This document shows positions 1,987-17,375 of a stretch of 21,497 nucleotides of DNA, piece by piece. This stretch comes from a virus. The stretch covers positions 1 through 21,497 of IMG/VR virus record IMGVR_UViG_3300045120_000173, one strand, 5' to 3'. Within the stretch, counting starts at the first letter, position 1, and each line of letters begins with the position of its first letter. The translations under genes and the position numbers were made by a program. The notes beneath the pieces are model-generated. The model was not told the DNA's origin. It did not search any database and saw nothing but the letters and a program-made list of their open reading frames with translations.

Positions 1987-3870
1987 ATGGCTATGCACTA
2001 TCGCGACTCCTTCTCGGAGGGGTCTGGCGACGAATTCGTGCTGTCTGACGGCAGCCGGGACCGGCACGGGACGCGCATTAATCCGGCCGGCTGGGATCTG
2101 ACGGAGTTCCGCAAGCATCCTGCTGCATTTTTCGGGCACGGCGGAGTGCCGATCGGCACGTGGGCGGATGTGCGAGTGGCGGGCGGGAAGCTGCTCGGGC
2201 GCCTGGTCATGGCCAAGAAAGGCTCTAGTGCCCGCCTAGACGAGCTGCGCAGCCTCGTCGAGCAGGGCATTCTGCGGGCCGTATCGGTTGGCTTTGAGCC
2301 GATCGAGGAGGGCAAGCCGGGTGACGAATGGGAATTCAAGCGACAGGCACTGCTAGAGGCTTCGCTTGTTGGCATTCCCTCGAACAAGAACGCGCTGAAG
2401 ATGGCGCGAAGCCTGAATCTCAGTGACGAAACCATGTCCTTGGCCTTTGGCGAGCAAGCCGAAATGAGGCGGGACATATCTGCCGGCGAGCAAGCCGCAA
2501 CATCCCGAAACAGGAATACGAAAGTGGAAAAGACACTCGCTAAGAGCATCGAGGATGCTCAGGAAAGCTACAACCAAGCGCGAGATGCGCTGAACGATCA
2601 CGTGAAGGACGAACACGCCGACAGCGATCAGACGGAGACCATGTCGGCCGAGGTCGAGCACCGGCTGAAGAAGCTCGATTCGCTGAAGCGGGCTGAGAAG
2701 GCGATGGCAGCGCGGACCGCCGATCCGCCGCCAGCGGCCAACGGACAATTTCAGGCACCGGCACTGCTTCGCCGTCCGCTCGGGGTGCAAAAAAGGGAAC
2801 CGAAGCCGGAGGATCTGCGGATCCGAGCCGCGCTAGTCAATTTCATCGCCGGAGCCCTGAACAAGGATCCGATGAAGGTTCTGGAAGAGCGCTATCCCGA
2901 CGACGAGGCAACCAACATTTATGTTCGCGCCGCCGTTCTCGGAGCAACGACAACGCTGGCCGGCTGGGCGGCCGAGCTCGTCGAAACGGCGAATATGAGC
3001 TTCATGTCGACGCTGAATCCAATGGCGGTGTTCCCGCGATTGGCGGCGCTCGGCACTAGCTTGGCTTTCGGACCCAATGCCGGGGCGATCAGAATTCCGT
3101 CGCGGGCAGCAACGCCATCGATTGCCGGCTCATTCGTGGCCGAAGGTGGTGCCATCCCGGTGCGCCGGCTTGGGCTGACGAGCATTACGCTCTATCCGCA
3201 CAAAGTCGGGGTAATCTCCTACTTCTCACGGGAGATTGCGCGCTACTCGACACCACAGATCGAAAGCCTCTTGCGGGAGGAAATCCAGAACGACACGGCG
3301 AAGGCCATCGATGCGCTTCTCATCGACAATGTGGCTGTTTCGACCACGCGGCCGGCGGGCCTTACCAATGGCGTAACGCCGATCACGGCGTCGACGGCAA
3401 ATGGCTATCTCGCCATCCTGGCCGACATCCAGGCCCTGGCGGCACCGTTCGACACCGCCAACGCTGGCGTCAAGCTTGTGCTGCTGATGAACAAGCGGGA
3501 GGCAAGGTTCCTGACTATGGCGCCTGGGCCAGACGGCACTTTCGGCTGGGCGAGCCAGTTCATGTCGGAGTTCAGCGTGCTGGTCTCGACGAGCATTCCG
3601 GCGGGAACGCTGGTAATGCTCGACGCCGCCGATTTCGTCTCGGTTGCCGGCGGTGCCGAGTTCGAAGCAAGCGAACTGCCGACCCTGCATGCCGACGATA
3701 CGACGCCGCTGAACATCGGCACGGCGGGCTCGCCGGCTACGGTTGCCGCACCGACAATTTCGATGTGGCAGACGGGCAATATCGCGCTCCGCATGATTAT
3801 GGACGTGACCTGGGCCATGCGGCGTTCCGGCATGGTGCAGACCATGACCGGCGCCGACTGGGGACCGTAG
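1987..3870 (+). CDS. Fused prohead protease and HK97-type major capsid protein
   Basis: This 627-aa polyprotein joins two normally separate head proteins. Residues ~1-145 match the S78 prohead protease: H51 in FFGHGG, S100 in AVSVGFEP and the conserved EASLVGIPSN at 124-133. Residues ~180-245 are charged and helical, like the HK97 delta (scaffold) region. Residues ~275-627 match the HK97 capsid fold, for example the IPSRAATPSIAG stretch and EGGAIPVRRLGLTSITLYPHKVGVISYFSREI region. The protease would presumably cut away itself and the delta region during maturation. ATG at 1987 follows CGGAG at 1971-1975. A second in-frame ATG at 1993 follows GGAA at 1983-1986 and is equally plausible. An internal GTG start at 2524 is described separately. 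Confidence 0.93.
   Translation: MAMHYRDSFSEGSGDEFVLSDGSRDRHGTRINPAGWDLTEFRKHPAAFFGHGGVPIGTWADVRVAGGKLLGRLVMAKKGSSARLDELRSLVEQGILRAVSVGFEPIEEGKPGDEWEFKRQALLEASLVGIPSNKNALKMARSLNLSDETMSLAFGEQAEMRRDISAGEQAATSRNRNTKVEKTLAKSIEDAQESYNQARDALNDHVKDEHADSDQTETMSAEVEHRLKKLDSLKRAEKAMAARTADPPPAANGQFQAPALLRRPLGVQKREPKPEDLRIRAALVNFIAGALNKDPMKVLEERYPDDEATNIYVRAAVLGATTTLAGWAAELVETANMSFMSTLNPMAVFPRLAALGTSLAFGPNAGAIRIPSRAATPSIAGSFVAEGGAIPVRRLGLTSITLYPHKVGVISYFSREIARYSTPQIESLLREEIQNDTAKAIDALLIDNVAVSTTRPAGLTNGVTPITASTANGYLAILADIQALAAPFDTANAGVKLVLLMNKREARFLTMAPGPDGTFGWASQFMSEFSVLVSTSIPAGTLVMLDAADFVSVAGGAEFEASELPTLHADDTTPLNIGTAGSPATVAAPTISMWQTGNIALRMIMDVTWAMRRSGMVQTMTGADWGP
2512..2526 (+). promoter_or_regulatory. 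Possible internal ribosome binding site and GTG start for capsid-only product
   Basis: AGGAA at 2512-2516 lies 7 nt before an in-frame GTG at 2524 (codon 180 of the fusion). Initiation here would give a protein of about 448 aa with the scaffold-like helix and capsid domain but no protease. This is inferred from spacing only; the codon could simply be an internal valine. Confidence 0.35.
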
Positions 3871-4162: not shown

Positions 4163-5547
4163 TGGGTAACTGGTTAACGCGGGTTTTCCGCCCCTCGACG
4201 GTGCGAGCCGCCGAGGGGCAATATCGGCCAGGACCGTATCTCCTCCAGGACGGTTGGCTGTCGGCCAGCGCCGGCCGGCTAATGAACTGGTGGCAATGCG
4301 GCTATACGCTCCAGCCCTATGGCGAATGCAGCGCCATCGTCGAGGCGTGCATCTCGGCTTATGCGCAGACGATCGCCATGTGTCCAGGCGACCACTGGCG
4401 CGCCCGCGATGACGGCGGGCGGACGCGTGTCACAACCTCAGCGCTGTCGCGCATCATGCGGCGGCCAAACGACTACGAGACAATCTCGAATTTTCTGATG
4501 AACCTGACGCGGCGCCTATACGCGAAGGGCGAGGCGTTCGGGGTGGCGCTCCGCAACGATCGCGGCGAGATCGCCGAGCTGCATCTGATGCGGGAGGGTG
4601 CACCGCGCATCGCCGAAGACGGATCGATCTTCTACAGCCTGACCGGGAATGAGATCCTCGACAAGCGGATTGATCTCAGCAATCCGGTTCCGGGGCGGGA
4701 TGTCCTGCATGTCCGGCTTCAGACGCCGCGGCATCCTCTGAAGGGCGAAAGCCCGATCCTGGCGGCAGCGCTTGATCTCGCCATGTCCGGCACCGCGCTC
4801 GGTCAGCAGATTGCCTACTACCAGAACGAAGCGCGGCCCTCGTTCCTGCTGCAAACAGATGACAATCTCACTCTCGAGCAGGTGAGCGCATTGCGGAATG
4901 TCTGGGACGCGCAGACGAAGGGCACAGGCTCCGGCGGCTCGCCGATCCTAACCGGCGGCACCAAGGCGCAGCAGATGTCCGGCGGCACCGCCGAGCAGGG
5001 CCAGCTCGCTGATCTGCTCAAGTGGACGGAGCAGAACATTGCGTTGGCGTTCCGCGTGCCGCTGCCGGTGCTGGGGATCGGCGGGACGCAGTATTCTTCG
5101 ACGGAATTGCAGATGCAGGCTTGGATCGCCAGCGGATTGGGGTTTGGGCTGAACCACATTGAAGTTGAATTCGACCGGCTGTTTGGGCTGCGCGGGCCGC
5201 CGGACGAATACACAGAGTTCGATACGAAGGTGTTGCTGCGCTCGGCCTTCAAGGATCGCATCGAGGGCCTGTCGCGCGGCGTTCTCTCAGGGATCTATGC
5301 GCCGAACGAAGCGCGCGCGGAAGTCGAGCTGAAGGCGGTCGCGTTCGGCGACGAGCCTAGAGTTCAGCAGCAAGTTGTTCCGTTGAGCGCAGCCGAGGAC
5401 ATTCCGAGCGCGCCGCCGGCGCCGGGGCCGGAGGCCGCGCCTGGACCGGCCACTCCATCCCCAGAGGATTCGGCAAATGCTGCAAAGAGTGCCCGAGCCA
5501 TTACACGGCGAGGCTTCCGGCGACAGGTCTATGCTGACGCTGCGTGA
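4162..5547 (+). CDS. Portal protein (HK97 family)
   Basis: This 461-aa protein would form the dodecameric DNA gateway at one capsid vertex and dock the terminase. Features of the HK97-type portal include the early W-rich region (GRLMNWWQCGYTL, 38-50), a region of alternating helices around YGECSAIVEACISAYAQT (53-70), the LMREGAPRI/VLHVR core (142-185), and the channel-region signature VPLPVLGIGGTQYSSTE (299-315) followed by ELQMQAWI. The C-terminal ~60 residues are Pro/Ala-rich and then basic, probably a disordered tail. The ATG shares bases with the previous stop (TGATG). The 3' end overlaps the collagen-like gene by up to 71 nt. Confidence 0.93.
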   Translation: MGNWLTRVFRPSTVRAAEGQYRPGPYLLQDGWLSASAGRLMNWWQCGYTLQPYGECSAIVEACISAYAQTIAMCPGDHWRARDDGGRTRVTTSALSRIMRRPNDYETISNFLMNLTRRLYAKGEAFGVALRNDRGEIAELHLMREGAPRIAEDGSIFYSLTGNEILDKRIDLSNPVPGRDVLHVRLQTPRHPLKGESPILAAALDLAMSGTALGQQIAYYQNEARPSFLLQTDDNLTLEQVSALRNVWDAQTKGTGSGGSPILTGGTKAQQMSGGTAEQGQLADLLKWTEQNIALAFRVPLPVLGIGGTQYSSTELQMQAWIASGLGFGLNHIEVEFDRLFGLRGPPDEYTEFDTKVLLRSAFKDRIEGLSRGVLSGIYAPNEARAEVELKAVAFGDEPRVQQQVVPLSAAEDIPSAPPAPGPEAAPGPATPSPEDSANAAKSARAITRRGFRRQVYADAA

Positions 5548-6148
5548 GGAGATCGCGGAAGAGCTCGGCCAAGAGCTCGGCCAGTTTGCGGTCAGTGTCC
5601 GGCGGGAATTGCGCGAGGCGCGGGATCTGGCACTCGCCGAGATGCGGGCCGCGGTCGCAGAGCTACGGCTAGCCGTAAACGAGCGACTGGCGACGGTCAG
5701 GGACGGCAGGGATGGCCTTGACGGGAAAGATGGCAGCGAGGGGCGGGACGGGGCCGATGGCGCTGTAGGGGCTCCTGGGGCGCCTGGCGAGCCTGGGCCG
5801 GCAGGAGCCGATGCCCGCAGCTTCGATATCCGCGGCACTTGGGCCGAGGCGGAAGAGTATCGGGCGCTCGATGTCGTGGCGCTGAACGGAGCCTCGTTCG
5901 TGGCACGCCGGGACGCGCCGGGCGCATGTCCGGGCGAGGGCTGGCAGTTGATCGCCGGGCAGGGCAAGCGCGGCCACCAGGGTGACCAAGGGCCGCCAGG
6001 ACCAAAGGGCGACGATGGGCCAGAAGGGCCGGCGGGGATGCCGGTGGTTGCACTTGCCGTCGACGCCGAGGGCTTGCTGACACTGACCAACGGCGACGGA
6101 TCGACGGTCAATTGCGACCTGTATCCGCTGCTGGCGAAGGCGCGATGA
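5477..6148 (+). CDS. Collagen-like coiled-coil fibre protein
   Basis: This 223-aa protein has the layout of a trimeric fibre. Residues ~22-75 form a charged heptad-like helix. Residues 77-112 hold 12 uninterrupted G-x-y triplets. Residues ~117-160 form a small domain with W122, Y128, W156 and the pattern ...YRALDVVALNGASFVAR..., like short carbohydrate/chitin-binding-type modules seen in phage fibres. Residues 163-186 hold eight more G-x-y triplets, and a short beta-rich end follows. ATG 5477 has AGAGGA at 5463-5468, 8 nt upstream. An alternative ATG at 5531 would shorten it by 18 residues and reduce the overlap with the portal gene. The function is probably a surface appendage; which virion part carries it is unknown. 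Confidence 0.82.
   Translation: MLQRVPEPLHGEASGDRSMLTLREEIAEELGQELGQFAVSVRRELREARDLALAEMRAAVAELRLAVNERLATVRDGRDGLDGKDGSEGRDGADGAVGAPGAPGEPGPAGADARSFDIRGTWAEAEEYRALDVVALNGASFVARRDAPGACPGEGWQLIAGQGKRGHQGDQGPPGPKGDDGPEGPAGMPVVALAVDAEGLLTLTNGDGSTVNCDLYPLLAKAR
5561..5584 (+). repeat. 12-bp direct tandem repeat in the coiled-coil region
   Basis: GAGCTCGGCCAA (5561-5572) is followed directly by GAGCTCGGCCAG (5573-5584), 11 of 12 bases identical. It encodes ELGQELGQ at the start of the helical stalk and is a candidate slippage duplication. Confidence 0.85.
5705..5812 (+). repeat. Collagen-like repeat block 1 (12 Gly-x-y triplets)
   Basis: Twelve consecutive triplets run from GRD GLD GKD through GPA GAD. 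The first half is Asp/Arg-rich and the second half Pro/Ala-rich, a charge pattern like other bacterial and phage collagens that lack hydroxyproline. Confidence 0.9.
5963..6034 (+). repeat. Collagen-like repeat block 2 (8 Gly-x-y triplets)
   Basis: Eight triplets run from GKR GHQ GDQ to GPE GPA. They follow the small W/Y-containing domain, so two triple-helical rods would flank a globular knob. Confidence 0.88.
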
Positions 6149-6160
6149 GGACAACAAATT

Positions 6161-6439
6161 ATGGCAGCAACTGAGATCTTGGCGGTTGGCAGCGGGGCGG
6201 CCAATTCGGCCGATGTTGTCATAGCCGCTGGCAGCACGCTGACGGTTGCCCTGAAGGACGCAACCGGGCCGGTGGCCGATGGGCGCGTGCAGATTTTCCT
6301 GAAGGGGGATAGCGGCCAATATTGGAATATCGGCGAGCTCTCCAGCAGCGGCACGGGAGCGCTCGTCATTATTGGGGCAGGCACCTATCGGTTCAGCCGG
6401 GTCGCGGAGTCGCCCGCCTGCGGGGTGTTTAGTGGCTAA
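6161..6439 (+). CDS. Small beta-rich virion-type protein, function unknown
   Basis: This 92-aa protein alternates short beta segments: SADVVIAAGSTLTVALKDA, RVQIFLKGDSGQYWNIGEL, ALVIIGAGTYRFSRV. It ends in ...SPACGVFSG. Its look is familiar from many siphophage structural operons, where such short beta-sandwich proteins are annotated as hypothetical or as decoration-like. ATG 6161 is preceded by GAGGA at 6146-6150. The position between fibre-like genes suggests a surface or decoration role, which is inference. Confidence 0.72.
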   Translation: MAATEILAVGSGAANSADVVIAAGSTLTVALKDATGPVADGRVQIFLKGDSGQYWNIGELSSSGTGALVIIGAGTYRFSRVAESPACGVFSG

Positions 6440-7289
6440 ACTGCTGCAACCACTGACGCAGCGGCTGATACAGCCGCTGACATTCGGGCTGAACGACCCC
6501 AAGCTTTACAAGCCGTTTGCTGCGCCGGTCGTGCCGGCCTGGGTACCGACCGATCTCGGCGCGAGCCTAAAGTTCTGGGTCACCGCCGGCGACCACGGCC
6601 AGGCCGGCTGGACCGACGACGGCGCCGGGCTGATGTCGGCCGTCAAGGACCGGGTCGGCAATCTGTCGCTGACCGCCATCACGGCGGAACGGCCGACCTG
6701 GGGCGCGACGAGCTTCAACAGCGCTTATCCCGGCCTGGCCTTTGCCGGGGCTCAGCGGCTCATCACGACCAGCCTCGGCACGCTGCCAACCGGCGCCGTC
6801 CCCGGTTCCGTCTTCATGGTGGTTTCGCAGGACTTCACCCCTGGTGGCGCAGGCACGCATTACCTGATGGCCTATGGTGGCGGCGCGCCCGCCGTCGATC
6901 GCGGGCTTACGCGGGTGCTGGCTACCTCCTCCCGGTTCCGCGTCTCTGACGGAACGACAGTCTCAAGCGAAGCGGTGGCTGTCTTTGACGGCGCGCATAT
7001 CGTTAGCGGCTCGTGGGCAGCGGCGGCGGAAACCGGCCGTTACGACGGTGCCGACATCAGCCAAGGCCCGGTCGCTATAACGCTCGCCACCGGCACTGCC
7101 CGCCTTGCTCTCGGTGCCCGCAATGGAGCGGCTATCGGCAGCGGCGCGACCATCAATGTCAGCGACATGATCATCACGACAACGTTGACGCTGCTCGAGC
7201 ACCAGAAGCTTGAGGGTTGGGCCGCATGGTCGAAAGGGCTCGTCGCCCGGCTTCCTGCGGGACACCCCTATAAGAGCGCCGCGCCATGA
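6432..7289 (+). CDS. LamG/concanavalin-like structural protein
   Basis: This protein is about 285 aa from a GTG at 6432, which overlaps the previous stop by 8 nt and has GGGG at 6422-6425. An upstream TTG at 6372 would need a 68-nt overlap and is less likely. After a short leader the protein reads as a jelly-roll of the LamG/concanavalin type: ASLKFWVTAGD, then a W-x-D-D segment, ERPTW, and FAGAQRLITTSL. A typical C-terminal LEHQKLEGWAAWSKGL then LPAGHPYKSAAP closes the domain. Such domains bind glycans or pack on virion surfaces. A role as a surface or adsorption accessory protein is inferred. The 3' end overlaps the next gene as ATGA. Confidence 0.78.
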   Translation: MAKLLQPLTQRLIQPLTFGLNDPKLYKPFAAPVVPAWVPTDLGASLKFWVTAGDHGQAGWTDDGAGLMSAVKDRVGNLSLTAITAERPTWGATSFNSAYPGLAFAGAQRLITTSLGTLPTGAVPGSVFMVVSQDFTPGGAGTHYLMAYGGGAPAVDRGLTRVLATSSRFRVSDGTTVSSEAVAVFDGAHIVSGSWAAAAETGRYDGADISQGPVAITLATGTARLALGARNGAAIGSGATINVSDMIITTTLTLLEHQKLEGWAAWSKGLVARLPAGHPYKSAAP

Positions 7290-7666
7290 CGTGCGAAACC
7301 GTCATCGACTTCCCGCGCGGCGACAATACCGAGATCTATTTCCTGTTTCTCGACAAGGCCAACGCGCTGCTCGACCTCGCCGGCAGTCGCTTCGTGCTGA
7401 CCCTGGCATGGGCCGGCGGAACGCTCACCAAGGATACCCTCGACGTTGACGGGCTCGCCATCGAAGAGGACGCGACGACAATAACGGACGACGGAGCAAC
7501 CTACGTCGGCGACCGACTGACTTGGTATCGGACGGTCGAGGAAAGCCGGATCGTGCCATCCGGCAACCTGACCGAATGGGAAGTCGAGCGGCGTATTGCT
7601 GGGGCTCAGGAGTCCTGGGGCAGTGGCCGCTTCAACGGCTATGGCGGGCTGACCCCGGATGACTAG
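7286..7666 (+). CDS. Small Ig-like/baseplate-type N-terminal domain protein
   Basis: This 126-aa protein has the pattern F-P-R-G-D-N-T-E-I-Y-F-L-F-L-D followed by LLDLAGSRFVLTLAW. It resembles the N-terminal domain of baseplate upper proteins and of small proteins found just upstream of tail fibres, which often act as attachment adaptors. The rest is acidic and unremarkable. It begins at ATG 7286 (ATGA overlap) and overlaps the spike gene by 8 nt, so it may be the adaptor for the spike. The family assignment is tentative. Confidence 0.65.
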   Translation: MTCETVIDFPRGDNTEIYFLFLDKANALLDLAGSRFVLTLAWAGGTLTKDTLDVDGLAIEEDATTITDDGATYVGDRLTWYRTVEESRIVPSGNLTEWEVERRIAGAQESWGSGRFNGYGGLTPDD

Positions 7667-9869
7667 CCCCGCAATCGTCGCGCTATCGACCCCACACCGT
7701 CCAACCGTCGTCAAGGTCGGCGTGCGTGGCGCCATCGGCCCGGCCGGCGGGATCGGCCATGTCGACCGGCTTCGCGAGGATCTCGGAAGCACGGCGTTCG
7801 CCAGCAATCAGCGCGGCATCTACATCTGGCAGTACTCCGCTGCCTCGCTGGCCAAGCCGGCGTTCTACCGGCGGCGGCTGGAGGCCGGCGCGCCGGATCA
7901 CGAGCTCGCCGGCCAGGACGCGGACGGCAACTGGTGGGAGATCGACGAGCAAGAGATCGACGTGCGCTGCGCCGGCTGCATGGTCGATGGCGTAACGGAT
8001 GATGCAGCGGCGCTGAACCGCGCCTACAAGGCCGGCGCCCGGCTCGGCGTCATAGTGTTCATCCCGAAGGGGCAACTGCTCGTCAAGGCGAGCGGGGTAC
8101 TTTGGAACGGACTGCGAGTTAAGGGCGCCGGCATGAGCGCCACGACTATCCTCGTCCAGCCCGAACTTACCATCACCCCGTTCCCGGTACCGCCTAATCA
8201 GAAGATCGATTACGTCCATCTGTCCGATTTCACGGTCGATGGGCAGGGCACACTTAACGGCGTTCGCACCGGTGGCGTTGCGCATCTCATCTCGGGATAT
8301 GCCTGCACGGGCTGGAAGCTGGAGCGGATCAAGCTCACCAACGCCATCGGCTATTGCATGGGCTGGCAGGGCTACCCGTTCGCGGTTCCCGGCAAGAACG
8401 GGCCGGAAGAAGATCTGCTTGCCATCGATTGCATTTTCGACCTCGGCGGCATGGTCAAGTCGGCGCAGACAACGCTCGTCAATGCCATCGATGCCGACGA
8501 TACGTCCATTACGGTCGGTGACTACACCATCCTCGATGCGACGGGCGGCGCCATCCAGGTCGGCGACGAGTTTATGAAGCACGGCACGGTGACCGGTCCG
8601 ACGATCGGCGTCACCCGAGGCGGGGCCGGCTCGACGCCGGCGGCGCACGCGGCAGGCGCACCCCTCTACCGGCTGGCCGGCGGCGATTGCATCGACATCA
8701 AGCACGCCACCAACTTTACCTTCATCCACTGTCTGTTCACCCGGTCCCTCGACAAAGGGCTCAATCCGCGTGTCCGCTTCGGCAAGGCGTATGGCTGCGG
8801 CGCCCGCTATTGTGTCGTCGGGTTTGGTCTCTCTTCGCTCGGCGAGGAGGAGGACATCTTCACGACCCTGACCGGGGCGATCACCTCCACGACGACAACG
8901 TTCCCCGTGGTCAGCACGACCGGCTTTCCAACGGCCGGGACGGGGCTGCTCGATAGCGAGACTTTTACCTGGACCGGGACGACGGCAACGACGCTGACGG
9001 GGGTTACGCGCGGGGTCAACAACTCGGCCGCCGTGGCGCATGCGTCCGGCACCGGCGTTGGCTGGATACAGCCGACCAGCGGCGAGGCCGATTGCTATTT
9101 CGGCATGTTCGGTTGCTGGGCCGAGCATTGCGATACCGGGGTCGCGGTGGGGGCCGGCGGCATCGCCTCGACGATGATGGCAGAGATCCATCATTTCATG
9201 GCGGATCAATGCATATCGGGAATCAATCTCTCGGGTGGGGCGACCGGTGCAGGCCGGCCGAGCGGGCGCCTGCGCGCTAAGGTCATCGGCGGATCGGTGA
9301 CGCGCTGCACGGGGTCGGCGCTCTATGCGCAGAATTTGGATTCACTAATCATCGATGGGTTCGGCAATCTGAATTGCGATTATGGCATCGAGGTTCACGA
9401 TAACCCGAACGGCGGTGTCATCGACAATTGGAGCCTGACCGGCAATATCCATGGTGACATTGCCGAGACGGGCCTCGGCGGGCGACTGCGGCTCGGTGAC
9501 GGAAACGGCACCAATATTTCGCTGCTCGCTGGCTCGACGCGGGCGATGCGGCTGGTTCCGGAACTCGGCATCAGGACCGAGCAGGGACTGAGCCTCGGCG
9601 TGACATGGACGCCGGGAGCCACGCCGGGCACGCTGTTGAACAATGAGTATTACGAGACGTTCGTGACGGATAGCCGCGTCGGCCTGGCAGATTGTGCGCT
9701 GCTTGCCGCGAACTTCAATACTGGCCAGGCAAACGTGCGCTGGGGCGCCAACGTCACCAAGAGCGGCTCGGGCAATGTTCGGCTATGGATTGAGAACAAG
9801 TCGGGCGGCACGCTAACGCCAGGCACGCTGAGCTCGAAGGTGTTCTTCTTCAAGGTGCTGAGCACATGA
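7659..9869 (+). CDS. Beta-helix tailspike-like protein with two inserted repeats
   Basis: This 736-aa protein resembles phage spikes of the pectate-lyase-3 type. A collagen-like or flexible leader (~1-50) is followed by the hallmark DGVTDDAAALNRAY at 110-123 and VIVFIPKGQLLVKAS at 131-145. Long right-handed beta-helix-type sequence follows (G/N/D-rich turns, e.g. 183-265, 340-395, 475-600). Two related ~70-aa domains interrupt the helix at 269-338 and 400-469. Residues ~625-736 look like a beta-sandwich C-terminal domain. Such proteins bind and often cleave host polysaccharide. No catalytic residues can be assigned from sequence alone. ATG 7659 overlaps the previous stop, and the 3' end overlaps the next gene (ATGA). 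Confidence 0.82.
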   Translation: MTSPAIVALSTPHRPTVVKVGVRGAIGPAGGIGHVDRLREDLGSTAFASNQRGIYIWQYSAASLAKPAFYRRRLEAGAPDHELAGQDADGNWWEIDEQEIDVRCAGCMVDGVTDDAAALNRAYKAGARLGVIVFIPKGQLLVKASGVLWNGLRVKGAGMSATTILVQPELTITPFPVPPNQKIDYVHLSDFTVDGQGTLNGVRTGGVAHLISGYACTGWKLERIKLTNAIGYCMGWQGYPFAVPGKNGPEEDLLAIDCIFDLGGMVKSAQTTLVNAIDADDTSITVGDYTILDATGGAIQVGDEFMKHGTVTGPTIGVTRGGAGSTPAAHAAGAPLYRLAGGDCIDIKHATNFTFIHCLFTRSLDKGLNPRVRFGKAYGCGARYCVVGFGLSSLGEEEDIFTTLTGAITSTTTTFPVVSTTGFPTAGTGLLDSETFTWTGTTATTLTGVTRGVNNSAAVAHASGTGVGWIQPTSGEADCYFGMFGCWAEHCDTGVAVGAGGIASTMMAEIHHFMADQCISGINLSGGATGAGRPSGRLRAKVIGGSVTRCTGSALYAQNLDSLIIDGFGNLNCDYGIEVHDNPNGGVIDNWSLTGNIHGDIAETGLGGRLRLGDGNGTNISLLAGSTRAMRLVPELGIRTEQGLSLGVTWTPGATPGTLLNNEYYETFVTDSRVGLADCALLAANFNTGQANVRWGANVTKSGSGNVRLWIENKSGGTLTPGTLSSKVFFFKVLST
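8463..8672 (+). repeat. Inserted ~70-aa domain, copy A
   Basis: Residues 269-338 of the spike protein. Shared pattern with copy B: TTL-x-x-AI, an alternating Thr/Val segment, a mid-domain Glu, then GVTRG, then S-x-A-A-H-A near the end. This type of short Thr-rich domain ending in GVTRG...AHA recurs in phage tail proteins. Confidence 0.75.
8856..9065 (+). repeat. Inserted ~70-aa domain, copy B
   Basis: Residues 400-469 of the spike protein. It begins TTLTGAITSTTTT and ends TLTGVTRGVNNSAAVAHASG, aligned end to end with copy A. It is strongly diverged at the DNA level, so this is an old duplication or two separate acquisitions. Confidence 0.75.
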
Positions 9870-11724: not shown

Positions 11725-12135
11725 ATGGCGAGGAAAGCGGTCGTCGATGCGGTCGAGACACGGCTTGCAGCGAACTGGGCGGCGACACCCATCATCGGGC
11801 TGAACACATTGCAGGGCGAGGCGCCGAGCGACGGCTCGGCGTTTGTGCGGGTCGAATATCCAGTGTCCGATACGCGGCAGATCACGTTCGGATCGCCCGG
11901 CAATAACTTCTGGCGCGAGCAGGGAGCGTTCCGCATCATCATCAATGCCGAGCGGGGCAGCGAACTCGATGCGCTCGCTTGGGTGGATACGCTCGGGGAT
12001 ATCTTTATCGGCAAGCAGTTCGACGGCTTGCAAACCTTCGCGCCGGGCTCGCCGTCAATCGATGATCGGAACGACCAGGGGAATTACTACCAACTTAGTA
12101 TGGTAATTCCTTTCCAATATGATTTCATCGGGTGA
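11725..12135 (+). CDS. Tail terminator protein (DUF4128-like)
   Basis: This 136-aa protein would cap the tail tube and join it to the head. It shows an N-terminal helix (VVDAVETRLAANW), the GSAFVRVEYPVSDTRQITFG region, FRIIINAERG and a short helix (DALAWVDTLGDIFIGK). That matches the alpha/beta layout of lambda gpU-like terminators and the DUF4128 family. The last ~25 codons are visibly more AT-rich than the rest and contain a hairpin at 12080-12110. The stop overlaps the HNH start. Confidence 0.8.
   Translation: MARKAVVDAVETRLAANWAATPIIGLNTLQGEAPSDGSAFVRVEYPVSDTRQITFGSPGNNFWREQGAFRIIINAERGSELDALAWVDTLGDIFIGKQFDGLQTFAPGSPSIDDRNDQGNYYQLSMVIPFQYDFIG
12080..12110 (+). promoter_or_regulatory. 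Inverted repeat upstream of the HNH gene
   Basis: GGAATTAC at 12080-12087 pairs perfectly with GTAATTCC at 12103-12110. A G-U and an A-T pair (12088-12102, 12089-12101) can extend it. It lies inside the terminator gene, 24 nt before the HNH ATG. No T-run follows, so it is not an intrinsic terminator; an mRNA structure is possible. Confidence 0.55.
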
Positions 12136-12875
12136 TGGAGAAGAAATGTCGAGAATGCAGCATCTCAATCGTATATCCGGCGCGCCTGTGTGATGAATGC
12201 AGGCAAAAGCTGGCAGTAGCTCGGCGTCGGCATTTTGGCCGACTGCAATACGAGAGGAAGCGCCATGGCACGGCACGCATCGGCGATATAATCAAGTGCG
12301 CAGACTGCTCTTCTCAGATAGTGAGGAATTCATCAACGCGGTCGCTCTGCGAGCCTTGTGCAGCAAAGCGACAAAGACAAAGCAAGTGGGACCAAAGCCG
12401 GAAAAGGGGCAGGGGCGCACGGGGCGACACGGCGATATGCGCCTATTGCAATGGCACGTTCACGAAGGCGGACGGCCGGCAGAAATTTTGCAGCCCATGT
12501 CGGGCTCAGGACGCCTCCGCAAAGCTGGCGGCAAAAAGACGGGGCAAGGACGATCCGGGCTTCGTGCTCAGGCGGGCTATCCGCACATCAATGTGGTACG
12601 CGCTCAAGGGACTGAAGCGCGGTCGGAAGTGGTCGGATCTCGTCGGCTATTCGGTCGACGATCTGAAACGGCATATTGAGCGACAGTTTGCTTCAGGGAT
12701 GTCATGGGCGAACTACGGGAAGTGGCACATCGATCATATCGTGCCGCTGGCTTCGTTTCAGATAGATGGGCCTGACGACCCGCAACTGCGGGCAGCTTAC
12801 GCCATGACGAATCTTCGTCCGCTTTGGGCACGGGACAATCAGACGAAGCGGGAAAAGAGAGTCCTGCTTCTCTAG
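12135..12875 (+). CDS. Free-standing HNH endonuclease with three zinc ribbons
   Basis: This 246-aa protein has three Cys4 pairs: C5/C8-C19/C22, C55/C58-C72/C75 and C102/C105-C119/C122. A basic linker follows, then the GYSVDDLKRHIERQF and MSWANYGKWHIDH region. The nuclease core has H198, D200, H201 (WHIDHIVPL), N226 (NLRPLW) and N235. This is a standard HNH layout of homing-type phage endonucleases, which cut DNA and spread their own gene. It sits between two universal tail genes and has no obvious tail role. ATG 12135 is preferred over the adjacent GTG 12132 because it gives a TGATG overlap. Base composition is lower in GC than the flanking genes. Confidence 0.88.
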   Translation: MEKKCRECSISIVYPARLCDECRQKLAVARRRHFGRLQYERKRHGTARIGDIIKCADCSSQIVRNSSTRSLCEPCAAKRQRQSKWDQSRKRGRGARGDTAICAYCNGTFTKADGRQKFCSPCRAQDASAKLAAKRRGKDDPGFVLRRAIRTSMWYALKGLKRGRKWSDLVGYSVDDLKRHIERQFASGMSWANYGKWHIDHIVPLASFQIDGPDDPQLRAAYAMTNLRPLWARDNQTKREKRVLLL

Positions 12876-12896: not shown

Positions 12897-13832
12897 ATGT
12901 TTGCATCGTCCAGCGGGACGCGCGTCGCCGTCAATGGTGAAACGGTATGGGGCGTCCCCGAAACGTCGCCGACTTTCCAAGAGTTGCGGGTAACCAATCG
13001 CGGCTTGCGAACGGCAAAACAGACAGCGGCATCAGCCGAACGGCGGGCCGACCGCAACGTGCCTGATCTGCTCCTGCTCAGCCTCGGCGCCGGCGGCGGC
13101 TATGATTTCGAATGGTCCTACTCAGATCATTTGGCGATCATGCAATCCGCGCTGTTTTCCAGATGGCCGACCGTGGCTCCATTCGAAATCAAGAATGGTA
13201 TTGATCCATATTATATGACGCTTGAGGAAACCCTGGAGCTCGGCACGACCGATTCGTTTTCGCGCTTCTCCGGCGCAATGGTCTCACGCTACAGCTTGTC
13301 GCTCCGGGCGCGCCAGATCGTGACCGGTACGGTTGAGTTTCTGGCGAAGAGTGAGGTGCTGGCAACAGCCATCCTCTCCGGCGCAACATATACTCCCGCC
13401 AACGCCTATCCGATCGCCACAGCATCCGCCAATGTTGCCGGCCTGGTCATTGGCGCAATTACGCCGTCGCCCAAGGTCATGTCGCTGGATTTCCAGATTG
13501 ATAACAGACTGCGGGAGCGGCCGGTTATTGGTTCACTCTATTCGCAGGAATTCGGCTCCGGGCGCTGCGAAGTGACCGGCAACATGTCCTGCTATTTCGA
13601 GAGCAACGATCTCTATCAAGCGGCACTAGATCACGAGTCGGCATCTTTGGATTTCGTGCTGGGGGATCCATCGGCCCGGCATTGGGAAGTGCATTTCCCG
13701 AAAATCTTCTTCGGCAACGTCGAACGTGTCGTCGGCGGTAACGATGAGGATGTCATGGTCAACTTGCCGTGGCAGGCCGTCTACGATGACGTAACCGACT
13801 GCACGATCAGAATCGTGAGGGAAACATCGTGA
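12897..13832 (+). CDS. Major tail tube protein
   Basis: This 311-aa protein is probably the subunit of the non-contractile tail tube. It is beta-rich, with an opening GTRVAVNGETVWGVPET, a central SRFSGAMVSRYSLSLRARQIVTGTVEF segment (beta-strand pairs typical of tube folds) and a repeat-like second half ending ...DVMVNLPWQAVYDDVTDCTIRIVRE. The length is near twice that of a minimal tube protein, suggesting an added domain. Position between the tail terminator (past the HNH insertion) and the chaperone/tape-measure genes supports the call. The stop overlaps the next start as GTGA. Confidence 0.82.
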   Translation: MFASSSGTRVAVNGETVWGVPETSPTFQELRVTNRGLRTAKQTAASAERRADRNVPDLLLLSLGAGGGYDFEWSYSDHLAIMQSALFSRWPTVAPFEIKNGIDPYYMTLEETLELGTTDSFSRFSGAMVSRYSLSLRARQIVTGTVEFLAKSEVLATAILSGATYTPANAYPIATASANVAGLVIGAITPSPKVMSLDFQIDNRLRERPVIGSLYSQEFGSGRCEVTGNMSCYFESNDLYQAALDHESASLDFVLGDPSARHWEVHFPKIFFGNVERVVGGNDEDVMVNLPWQAVYDDVTDCTIRIVRETS

Positions 13833-14047
13833 AAACCATCATCATCCTTGAGGACTTCACCGGCTATCCGCAGGGAGCCAAGCAGGGCAGCCTGCGGCAG
13901 GAATTCGAAAAGGGTCAGGAGATCGAGGTAACCGATGCCTTCGCCGAGCTCGTCATCGGCAAGGGCCATGCAAAGGAGAAGGCCGGCGGCGAGGCTAAGG
14001 ACAAGAAGAAGGCAAAGGAGTCCGAGGCAGCCGAGCCGCAGGAGTGA
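13829..14047 (+). CDS. Small charged protein upstream of the tail chaperone
   Basis: This 72-aa protein starts at GTG 13829 (GTGA overlap). The N-terminal half is compact (MKTIIILEDF, then KGQEIEVTDAFAELVIGKG), resembling short beta-hairpin phage proteins. The last ~25 residues are Lys/Glu/Ala-rich and probably disordered. I do not recognise the family. Its place in the tail tube/chaperone interval suggests an accessory tail-assembly role, which is inference. Confidence 0.7.
   Translation: MKTIIILEDFTGYPQGAKQGSLRQEFEKGQEIEVTDAFAELVIGKGHAKEKAGGEAKDKKKAKESEAAEPQE
14039..14044 (+). promoter_or_regulatory. Ribosome binding site that sets the chaperone start
   Basis: CAGGAG precedes the GTG at 14052 by 7 nt. 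It supports that start rather than the far-upstream in-frame ATG at 13935, whose product would have an Arg/Ser-rich, non-native-looking leader. Confidence 0.7.
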
Positions 14048-14051
14048 GCGC

Positions 14052-14465
14052 GTGGATCTGAAAGAGATCAAGACCGACCCGGCGCTGCTCGAGCAAGGCG
14101 GCTGGGTGAGTGACATCCCCGGAATGGGGGATCTGGAGCTCCAAGTGCGACCACTCAGCAATCCGAAATATCAAAGGCTCCAATCGAAACTGATCCAGGC
14201 GCTGCCGCGGGCAAAGCGCGTCGGCGGCCGGCCCGATGAGGATGAGCAGGATCGCATCATCTCAACCTGCCTGCTCAATACCGTGCTGCTTGGCTGGCGC
14301 AATCTGAAGGATGGCGGCGAGGAAGTAGAGTTCACCCCGGACATGGCGCGCATGCTCATACTGCAACCGGAGTTCCGCGACTTCCGCGATGCGGTGCTCT
14401 ACGCCTCCGGCGTGGTCAGTGATAATCGGGTGGCTGACCAAGAGGACGCCGCAAAAAACTCATAG
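14052..14465 (+). CDS. Tail assembly chaperone, short form (gpG-like)
   Basis: This 137-aa protein is helical, with a conserved-looking core (LELQVRPLSNPKYQRLQSKL, about residues 25-44; RIISTCLLNTVLLGW at 75-89). It would coat the tape measure during tail assembly. It stops at TAG 14463-14465, 6 bases after the A AAA AAC slippery heptamer, so most ribosomes would make this short form. A -1 slip at 14453-14459 would join it to the next reading frame to give a 251-aa gpGT-like product (14052-14806). Length, position just before the tape measure and the slippery site together make this assignment strong. Confidence 0.88.
   Translation: MDLKEIKTDPALLEQGGWVSDIPGMGDLELQVRPLSNPKYQRLQSKLIQALPRAKRVGGRPDEDEQDRIISTCLLNTVLLGWRNLKDGGEEVEFTPDMARMLILQPEFRDFRDAVLYASGVVSDNRVADQEDAAKNS
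14453..14459 (+). promoter_or_regulatory. Programmed -1 frameshift site (A AAA AAC)
   Basis: In the chaperone frame the codons are GCA AAA AAC TCA TAG, giving the X XXY YYZ heptamer A AAA AAC exactly in register. After a -1 slip the next codons are CTC ATA GAG GTG, entering the downstream frame. The zero-frame stop follows immediately. Confidence 0.85.
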
Positions 14466-14806
14466 AGGTGCTTCGCTGGTCGCTCGCATGGGATGGCGAA
14501 AAGGCGAAGTGGCTGGAGGAAATCGCCGAGGAGGAAGGGCGGCCGCCCAAGGCGCTCATTGACCGGCCGGAGCTCTTCCCCGGCAATGAGTGGTATCTCG
14601 AAGCGTTCTGGGAACTCTCGACGGATCGTGATGCCGGCATGGCGCTCGGCCCGATCCCGTTCAGCGCCATCAATCAATATGGCAAGCGGCTCGCGCTCGA
14701 CGCCGAGGAGTTTGATACCTTCCGCATCATGATCCGGGCGCTGGACGGCGCCTATCTCGACCACGCCGAGGCGCGTCGCAAGGCGCGCGAGAAGCAACAC
14801 AAATAG
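14459..14806 (+). CDS. Tail assembly chaperone C-terminal extension (gpT-like, -1 frame)
   Basis: This 115-codon frame is entered by -1 frameshifting and would form the C-terminal part of the long chaperone that recruits tail tube subunits. Visible features are LRWSLAWDGEKAKWLEE, ELFPGNEWYLEAFWELSTDRD, the IPFSAINQYGKRL helix, ALDGAYLDH and a basic KAREKQHK end. These match other siphophage gpT-like extensions. The only start codon nearby is a GTG at 14468 whose AGAGG lies flush against it, a poor initiation site. Frameshifting therefore explains the gene better than independent start. Confidence 0.85.
   Translation, partial: LIEVLRWSLAWDGEKAKWLEEIAEEEGRPPKALIDRPELFPGNEWYLEAFWELSTDRDAGMALGPIPFSAINQYGKRLALDAEEFDTFRIMIRALDGAYLDHAEARRKAREKQHK
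14471..14509 (+). promoter_or_regulatory. Possible stimulatory stem-loop after the slippery site
   Basis: CTTCGC at 14471-14476 can pair with GCGAAG at 14504-14509. TCGC at 14484-14487 can pair inside it with GCGA at 14496-14499. The stem begins 11 nt past the heptamer, slightly farther than usual. Confidence 0.5.
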
Positions 14807-14819
14807 GTCTCTGCCCAAC

Positions 14820-17375
14820 ATGGAAATGAACGTCATCCGCCGTGTTGAAATCCGCGGCTCGGCGCCCGGCGTGGCGGAAGCGACTACTCAGTTGCAGGGG
14901 CTGTCGAAGGCGCAGGATCAGGTTGCCGCGTCGGGCGAGAAACTCGGCACCGTCACCGACATCAATACGCGCCGACAGATCTCCGCGGCGCAGGCCATCG
15001 ACCGGCTGCGTGCCTCGATGGACTCCACATACCGGGCGCAGCAGCAACTGGAGCGTGGCCAGGCGCTGGTGGATCGCGCTTTCCAGCAGGGTGCCATCGA
15101 TGCAAACCGGCAGGCCGAGATGCTCGGCATGCTGCAACAGCGCTACCGGCAGGCAACGGCGGGATCGGCCGGCCTGCACCAGGCTAATACGCTGTCTAGC
15201 CAGCAACTCGGTGTCATGCAGTTCCAGTTGCAGGATATCATGGTTGGGCTGGCATCCGGGCAATCGCCGTTCACGGTGATGATGCAGCAGGGCTCCCAAC
15301 TCGCCCAAAGCTTCCGATCTGGAACCGGCGTTACTGCAGCGCTTCGGGCAATCGGTACCGGCATCGTCTCGTTCGTCACCAATCCGCTCAATCTCGCTGT
15401 GGTCGGCTTCGGCCTGGCGGCCGCGGCGGCAGTGGCGTTCTACCGGGCCGTCACGCAGGGCGGTGCATCGGTCGCCGATACGCTGAAGGAGCATGAAGAG
15501 CACATCCGCAGGATCAAGGATGCCTGGCAAGATGCCGGCAAGGCTATGGAGGCTTATGGCAGGGAGGGCATCAACGTTATCGAAACGCTTGATCGGCTGA
15601 CGACGGAGCGAATGCGGCAGCAGTTGATCAAGGGTGCAAGCGGCATCACCATGCCGCACGGGCCGCTGGATGCCATTTTCGGCAATCCTCTACAGCCGTT
15701 CGCAGGGGCCTTTGGAGCGCTCGACAAGAGCAAGGCCGCCGGCATGCCCGACATCCTGCAATTTCGTCGGCTCGTCGTGGAGGCGATGAATGCCCAGGGC
15801 GCGACCCAGAGCACTCAGAGATATGGCAAGAGCCTGCTCGAAACGACTGAAGAACTGGCCAAGATCCAAATCGAATTGGATGGCTATCACGAGAAGCTTA
15901 ACCGGGCGACAGAGGCAGCGCGGGTGGCGGCAACCGCGCAGGAACATCTGAAGCGCGTTACGGAGGAGGCGGGCGAGGCAGCCAAGAAAGCCGCCGACGC
16001 ACAGCAGGCGGGGCACGAGGCCTATCAGGATGCGCTCGACCGCAACATCAAGAAGACCGAAGAGCTGCGTACGGAAACAAGTAAGGCGTTCTCCTCCATC
16101 GTGCAGGATATCCGCTCCGGCGCGAGCGCTGGCCAGGTGCTGCTCAACATCCTCAATCGCATCTTCGACGCGGCGACGAACAAGCTCGGCGACATGATTG
16201 CCAATGCGCTGTTTCCATCCGGCGGAAAGGGCGGTGGATTGGGCGGGCTATTAGGCATCACGCCGCCGCCGGTTCCGGGGCAGGTCAATCCAGCACCGTT
16301 CACCGGATACGACCCGACGACCGGCAAGGTGATCGGGCCGACGGTTGTTCCCGATCCAATGGGGCGCGGCTATGATCCGTTGTCGGGACGGATGCGGCCG
16401 CTGCCGACCCCGCCGACGCCTCGTGTTCCGTTGACGAAGCCGCCGACTGGCGGGGCAGCGCCTGCACTAGATGGGAGTGGTGGTGGCACGGGCGGATTCT
16501 TTAGGACTGCTGGCAATTATCGTGGGCCGGTAAATGACGTTCTGACGAATGCATTGCGGGAAACGGCTTTGGCGCAGGGCTATGGCGTAGAGGCATTCTC
16601 CGGCCGTGGGGGACGCGCCAGCAATCCAGGCTCGATGCATCCTAGGGGATTGGCGACCGATTTCCGACTTATCGATCTAGCGACGGGCAAGCCGGTTGGT
16701 GGGGTTTCAAACCCTATCCGCCATCCAGAAATATTCCGGGCGTATGAACAATTCGCGCAGGATACTTATCAGACTCTTCTGAAGACCAATCCCGCTGCAG
16801 CGGCGCAATTCCGCTTCGGCGGTTATTTCAGCGACCGGCCGCTCGATGTCATGCACGCTGATATGGGCGGCATGCTCGGCAAAACCATGGGCGGCGGCAC
16901 ATGGGCCGGCGGATTGTCTGATGCGATGCGTGCCAGATATCCAGGCGCCGAATCGGTCGGCCTGGGTCAGCTTCTCAGCAGCCTGTTCGGCGGCCTCTTC
17001 GGTGGCGGAACTGGGGCAATGGTGGCGCATGCCGGCGGGCTGATCGGCGAGGGCGACCACATGCGGCCGAAAAGGCGCGTGCCGCTCGCCATGTTCGCCA
17101 ATGCCCCGCGCTATCACAGCGGCGGCTGGCTCGCCGCGGACGAGCGCCCCGCAATCCTGCAAACCGGCGAGCGGGTGCTCTCGCGGGCCGATGTGGCACA
17201 GGGGCGCCGCCGCGGCGGCGGATTCGCAACGACGATCAACGTTGACGCGCGGGGCTCCCAGATCGGCGAGACGCAAATCCGCGGCATCGTCGCCGGACAG
17301 CTCAAGGAGCACCGGACCGACCTGACCCGCCACTTCGGCGACGTGCAGCGGGCGCACAACCTGCTGAAGGGCTGA
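14820..17375 (+). CDS. Tape measure protein with embedded M15-like peptidase domain
   Basis: This 851-aa protein sets tail length and is ejected into the host envelope. Residues ~1-165 are helical and contain the prophage tape-measure signature LGVMQFQLQDIMVGLASGQSP (130-150). A hydrophobic stretch follows at 189-207 (PLNLAVVGFGLAAAAAVAF). Long coiled coils run ~220-430. A Pro/Gly linker (480-565) leads to a peptidase-like domain at ~570-712 with H607-x6-D614 and H679-x-D681. The end has the common motif YHSGGWLAADERPAILQTGERVL (765-787). The embedded domain suggests a D-Ala/peptide-cutting step in the peptidoglycan. ATG 14820 and ATG 14826 are both possible. Confidence 0.9.
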   Translation: MEMNVIRRVEIRGSAPGVAEATTQLQGLSKAQDQVAASGEKLGTVTDINTRRQISAAQAIDRLRASMDSTYRAQQQLERGQALVDRAFQQGAIDANRQAEMLGMLQQRYRQATAGSAGLHQANTLSSQQLGVMQFQLQDIMVGLASGQSPFTVMMQQGSQLAQSFRSGTGVTAALRAIGTGIVSFVTNPLNLAVVGFGLAAAAAVAFYRAVTQGGASVADTLKEHEEHIRRIKDAWQDAGKAMEAYGREGINVIETLDRLTTERMRQQLIKGASGITMPHGPLDAIFGNPLQPFAGAFGALDKSKAAGMPDILQFRRLVVEAMNAQGATQSTQRYGKSLLETTEELAKIQIELDGYHEKLNRATEAARVAATAQEHLKRVTEEAGEAAKKAADAQQAGHEAYQDALDRNIKKTEELRTETSKAFSSIVQDIRSGASAGQVLLNILNRIFDAATNKLGDMIANALFPSGGKGGGLGGLLGITPPPVPGQVNPAPFTGYDPTTGKVIGPTVVPDPMGRGYDPLSGRMRPLPTPPTPRVPLTKPPTGGAAPALDGSGGGTGGFFRTAGNYRGPVNDVLTNALRETALAQGYGVEAFSGRGGRASNPGSMHPRGLATDFRLIDLATGKPVGGVSNPIRHPEIFRAYEQFAQDTYQTLLKTNPAAAAQFRFGGYFSDRPLDVMHADMGGMLGKTMGGGTWAGGLSDAMRARYPGAESVGLGQLLSSLFGGLFGGGTGAMVAHAGGLIGEGDHMRPKRRVPLAMFANAPRYHSGGWLAADERPAILQTGERVLSRADVAQGRRRGGGFATTINVDARGSQIGETQIRGIVAGQLKEHRTDLTRHFGDVQRAHNLLKG
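16527..16955 (+). other. M15-type peptidase-like domain inside the tape measure
   Basis: Residues 570-712. The S-M-H-P-R-G-L-A-T-D pattern matches the S-x-H-x6-D zinc site of VanX/DD-peptidase-like M15 enzymes. H679 near the end (DVMHADMGG) would be the third zinc ligand. The closing TWAGGLSDAMRARYPGAESVG matches the tail of stand-alone phage peptidoglycan hydrolases. Confidence 0.65.

Follow-up and report, generated by a model that had tools for sequence, protein, structure and literature searches.

In phage lambda, the slippery heptamer of the tail chaperone pair G/GT is GGGAAAG. The pair is made from one start codon via a -1 slip and is encoded 5′ of the tape measure gene (reviewed in PMC5009743). 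In the Caulobacter phage phiCbK and its group, AAAAAAC is the shift site of the pre-tape measure chaperone gp93/gp94, and GGGAAAC takes this role in phage Colossus (PMC3556154). Sites of the same two kinds have been predicted in gp18/gp19 of the Burkholderia phage KL1, with GGGAAAC adjoining the stop codon and a predicted stem-loop (PMC3483164), and in gp12/gp13 of the Acinetobacter phage Loki, with AAAAAAC adjoining the stop codon (PMC5313236). The frameshift signal of Escherichia coli dnaX has three parts, a Shine-Dalgarno-like element upstream, an A-rich heptamer and a hairpin downstream (PMC3711429). The device is thus widespread in phages and already described, and the heptamer AAAAAAC is already published; the window analyzed here (the whole of a 21,497-nt stretch of viral DNA) is, judged from its sequence, a clear new example, in which a programmed -1 ribosomal frameshift almost certainly lets one start codon serve two tail assembly chaperones.

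The 21.5-kb record is a virus contig which, according to profile matches, encodes packaging, head and tail functions of a long-tailed phage, comprising terminase, a protease-capsid fusion, portal, connectors, tail terminator, tail tube, two chaperone ORFs, tape measure and tail tip genes. The features of the chaperone region and of its tail tube and tape measure neighbors given below lie on the plus strand. The order along the window is tail tube (12897-13832; PF18906 Phage_tube_2, 5.7e-42), a small ORF, ORF1 (14052-14465), ORF2 (14459-14806) and, directly 3′ of ORF2, tape measure (14820-17375; phrog_8892, 1.4e-38; TMP_2, 1.4e-14), so that an overlapping ORF pair of the lambda G/GT type lies between the tail tube and tape measure genes. 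As in lambda, a single start and a -1 slip would give two chaperones upstream of the tape measure; the heptamers differ, however, and the likeness is drawn from layout, not from sequence relation. No near-identical DNA to the window was found among phage records.

Three other loci of the record deserve mention. A single ORF at 1987-3870 has matches to families of head maturation proteases as well as of major head proteins and represents the protease-capsid fusion. At 5477-9869, flanked by the portal and head-tail connector genes, are collagen-like and tail-fibre/tail-protein-like genes; fibre genes are unusual at such a place. Between the tail terminator and the tail tube, an endonuclease VII-like ORF at 12132-12875 (phrog_1035, 4e-16) shows a weak N-terminal match to a zinc ribbon and is possibly a homing endonuclease.

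ORF1, a G-type tail assembly chaperone of 137 aa (phrog_313, 2.8e-11; phrog_8233, 1.5e-7), runs from a GTG at 14052 to a TAG at 14463-14465, and its Shine-Dalgarno sequence AGGAG (14040-14044) is placed 7 nt 5′ of the GTG. It is homologous to ORF1 of RcXuper and of Caulobacter and Dinoroseobacter phages, and detectably related to the Ccr phages. ORF2 is a T-type domain in the -1 frame (PF23812 Phage_TAC_18, 9.2e-19; phrog_3817, 3.6e-28; phrog_8233, 3e-14) that would add 115 aa to a fusion, with 14803 as its last coding base and its stop codon at 14804-14806. Both parts therefore fall into tail chaperone families, and the 271-aa phrog_8233 profile is matched by ORF1 over residues 8-125 and by ORF2 over residues 145-257, as expected of a family containing fused products. 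The profiles of ORF1 and ORF2 found no match among solved structures. The first-pass annotation had described the -1 frame as free of stops before 14804, and indeed it is open from 14438 (with a stop upstream at 14435) up to the stop of ORF2; both frames are open together over a short stretch only, the roughly 25 nt (14438-14462) that precede the ORF1 stop. In this GC-rich DNA, 6 of 103 -1 runs reach 122 codons as this one does; its length is thus no rarity, and the coding character of ORF2 is deduced from its homology to PF23812 and phrog_3817 and not from frame length.

Within the overlap, A AAA AAC (14453-14459) is the sole in-frame X XXY YYZ heptamer of ORF1, and ORF2 is in the -1 frame. 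Its register with the upstream frame, already pointed out in the first-pass annotation, is confirmed by the codons GCA (14451), AAA (14454), AAC (14457), TCA (14460) and TAG (14463), which leave one codon, TCA, between the heptamer and the stop. As background, in-frame XXXYYYZ occurs 5 times in 6504 codons over the remaining genes of the window. The ORF1s of relatives, their 3′ ends left aside, have 22 in 7420 codons, none of them XXXAAAC. The chance of encountering any heptamer at the roughly 7-9 in-frame positions of the overlap is thus about 1-3%, and far lower for XXXAAAC; support for a frameshift beyond chance comes from the ORF2 homology and from the comparison with relatives.

In phage records, tblastn returned 22 relatives for ORF1 and 332 for ORF2. 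Scoring with ORF1 coordinates covered 14 named phage records; in each of them the ORF1 stop is preceded, at a distance of 0 or 1 codon, by GGGAAAC or AAAAAAC, and ORF2 is in the -1 frame. When single proteins were used to scan viral and genome contigs for close relatives, ORF1 gave none and ORF2 gave one. Viral and bacterial contigs were also scanned by ORF2 protein motifs, the heptamer not being used, with an alignment of five members (one of 12 members was too diverse), and 70 further loci were obtained. After removal of near duplicates at 80% ORF2 identity, 62 non-redundant loci were left, window included, most of them found by the ORF2 protein alone. In 62/62 loci, ORF1 carries an XXXAAAN heptamer close to its 3′ end and the frame offset is retained, the heptamers being 30 AAAAAAC, 28 GGGAAAC, two GGGAAAA, one GGGAAAT and one AAAAAAG. 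The distance from heptamer to stop is 0 nt in 38 loci, 3 nt in 19, 12 nt in four and 39 nt in one, so that the stop is 0 or 1 codon away in 57 of 62. Two further loci, without a heptamer according to the script, are not counted among the 62 and were read by hand. One (L059) has AAAAAAC-TGA in the correct frame; in the other (L071, 2075-2876), the ORF1 frame contains G GGG GAA, apparently used in place of XXXAAAC, and this heptamer is reported to be frequent in SEA-PHAGES genomes (PMC10885494). A relative with a broken slippery site and both frames intact, the finding named in the first-pass annotation as one that would speak against a frameshift, was sought, and none was present among the 62 loci and these two.

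The relatives are phages of alphaproteobacteria and also of gamma- and betaproteobacteria, and an alphaproteobacterial host is a plausible label for the window. phiCbK and Colossus, phages of alphaproteobacteria, resemble the window in gene position, in the two-product layout and in a site that is AAAAAAC or GGGAAAC; they differ in that protein identity is only about 25% and the Caulobacter phages are much larger. The Rhodobacter phages RcRudolph and RcSimone-Hastad have an ORF2 that is 41-43% identical to that of the window and annotated as a joined frameshift product, but in them GGGAAAC is followed directly by the stop, whereas the window has AAAAAAC with one codon between. For KL1 and Loki, the published predictions likewise put the heptamer, GGGAAAC in the former and AAAAAAC in the latter, right where the first tail chaperone gene stops; these phages have beta- and gammaproteobacterial hosts and, unlike the window, an extra tail gene between the chaperones and the tape measure. 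The first-pass annotation had stressed that the heptamer is a different one from that of lambda, which holds, but the site is not unusual in its own lineage, given the AAAAAAC and GGGAAAC published for Caulobacter phages.

The possibility that ORF2 is made separately, by termination-reinitiation at the GTG at 14468 with the heptamer being incidental, has in its favor that this GTG, the first start in the ORF2 frame, is found 2 nt past the ORF1 stop, a spacing that suits coupled reinitiation, and that Vibrio phage 382E49-1 shows a junction, TAGAGGTG, much like that of the window. The GTG is directly abutted by AGAG, which leaves ORF2 without a properly spaced Shine-Dalgarno, in agreement with the first-pass annotation. 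Moreover, the relatives do not conserve this GTG: the first ATG, GTG or TTG of their -1 frame is in most cases far inside ORF2, often by tens of codons, and one relative has none. The protein similarity, on the contrary, begins at the shift site, with matches from query residue 1, and every relative has kept the slippery site. Reinitiation is for these reasons very unlikely. Still less probable is slippage of the RNA polymerase on the run of six A, by which mRNAs with joined frames would arise. Runs of A do serve in this way in some dnaX genes, but the sites of transcriptional slippage often have 8 or more A/T (PMC3711429). In addition, nearly half of the relatives carry at the same place GGGAAAC, which has no long homopolymer, so that a common mechanism should act at translation.

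It could also be argued that the two ORFs are truly one continuous gene, either degraded or split by an error of sequencing or assembly, as the window is a virus contig record and not a finished isolate genome. However, isolated phages with complete genomes show the same -1 layout, as do sequenced genomes of bacteria (L085-L088), which reduces the likelihood of this explanation almost to nil. A programmed -1 frameshift in a tail chaperone gene, the reading already put forward in the first-pass annotation, is by contrast supported by the register of the heptamer, the gene position, the families of both ORFs and the presence of XXXAAAN in all 62 loci.

The window may share the three-part layout of E. 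coli dnaX, with a candidate element upstream and a predicted hairpin downstream of the heptamer, although dnaX is a cellular gene with AAAAAAG, whose product is shortened rather than extended by the shift; the significance of the two flanking elements is seen at the group level and not in the window alone. The candidate upstream stimulator is the Shine-Dalgarno-like GAGGA at 14442-14446, overlooked in the first-pass annotation, which begins 11 nt 5′ of the first base of the heptamer. In the 62 loci, the Shine-Dalgarno cores GAGG, AGGA and GGAG peak 10-12 nt 5′ of the heptamer, and such an element at -10 to -12 was observed 37 times against 25.0 expected under synonymous permutation of ORF1 (z 4.3). 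Where the codon starting 11 nt upstream encodes Glu and is followed by G, it is GAG in 30 of 37 cases compared to 82 of 243 elsewhere (p 5.5e-8), a p-value that, like the one for the hairpin below, is optimistic since these statistics treat related phages as independent. The element is commoner at AAAAAAC sites (22/30) than at GGGAAAC sites (13/28). Taken alone, the GAGGA of the window has no significance under synonymous permutation (permutation frequency 0.92).

The candidate downstream stimulator is a predicted stem-loop at 14466-14514 (-21.6 kcal/mol, z -1.84; 10 of 200 shuffles equally good). The CTTCGC of the stem proposed in the first-pass annotation does begin at 14471, 11 nt after the heptamer, but the best predicted stem is longer than had been stated and pairs 14469-14477 with 14503-14511, with an inner helix of 14480-14484 and 14495-14499. 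In the group, the 50 nt 3′ of the site fold more strongly than their synonymous permutations, with a mean z of -1.73 compared to -0.32 at a control position (p 2e-7), whereas in the window alone the same comparison was not significant (z -1.35, p about 0.12) and in a wider context of 141 nt the fold was no better than shuffles (z -0.08).

In the mechanism that we propose, most ribosomes would end at the TAG at 14463 and release the 137-aa G-type protein. A minority would stall at A AAA AAC, Lys- and Asn-tRNA being in place there, and shift back by one base; the nearby stop, the hairpin and pairing between GAGGA and 16S rRNA would probably help. These ribosomes would then read CTC ATA GAG and onward to 14803, giving a G-T fusion with a predicted length of 251 aa, under tandem as well as P-site-only slippage. 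That length is as given in the first-pass annotation, but the junction K-K-L-I-E named there requires a slip of the P-site tRNA alone with AAC still unread, the tandem slip, in which AAA AAC is read first, predicting A-K-N-L-I-E instead. By analogy with lambda, the G part would bind the tape measure protein, with recruitment of the tail tube protein falling to the T part. What the analysis shows is the signal in the sequence, its conservation and the tail chaperone families of both ORFs; we infer the occurrence and frequency of slippage, the action of the stimulators and the chaperone function. The efficiency of the site could be low, since in E. coli A_AAA_AAC promotes shifting far less than A_AAA_AAG does (PMC5009743) and re-pairing from AAC to AAA is tolerated less readily by the prokaryotic ribosome (PMC4066793).

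A consistent XXXAAAC signal that ranks as poor in E. coli tests raises a testable question, namely whether tRNA-Asn slips more readily in other hosts or the stimulators and the nearby stop compensate. We found no statement in the open-access literature of the group-wide regularity of a near-exclusive XXXAAAC, a stop within one codon, a Shine-Dalgarno-like element at -10 to -12 and a hairpin. As a tentative proposal, with the odds rather against it, the Phage_TAC_18 lineage might use these elements together, with the stop 0-1 codon away, as a conserved class of low-efficiency signal that sets the G:GT ratio and is possibly tuned via tRNA-Asn and its wobble modification.

As regards annotation, ORF1 and ORF2 should be entered as one frameshifted product. 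A joined feature is present in only 3 of 16 related phage records, those of RcRudolph, RcSimone-Hastad and Caulobacter RBC11, and several begin ORF2 far too late. In the phage records L008, L009 and L010, ORF2 is annotated from a start well 3′ of the shift site, and the frameshift product has been missed.
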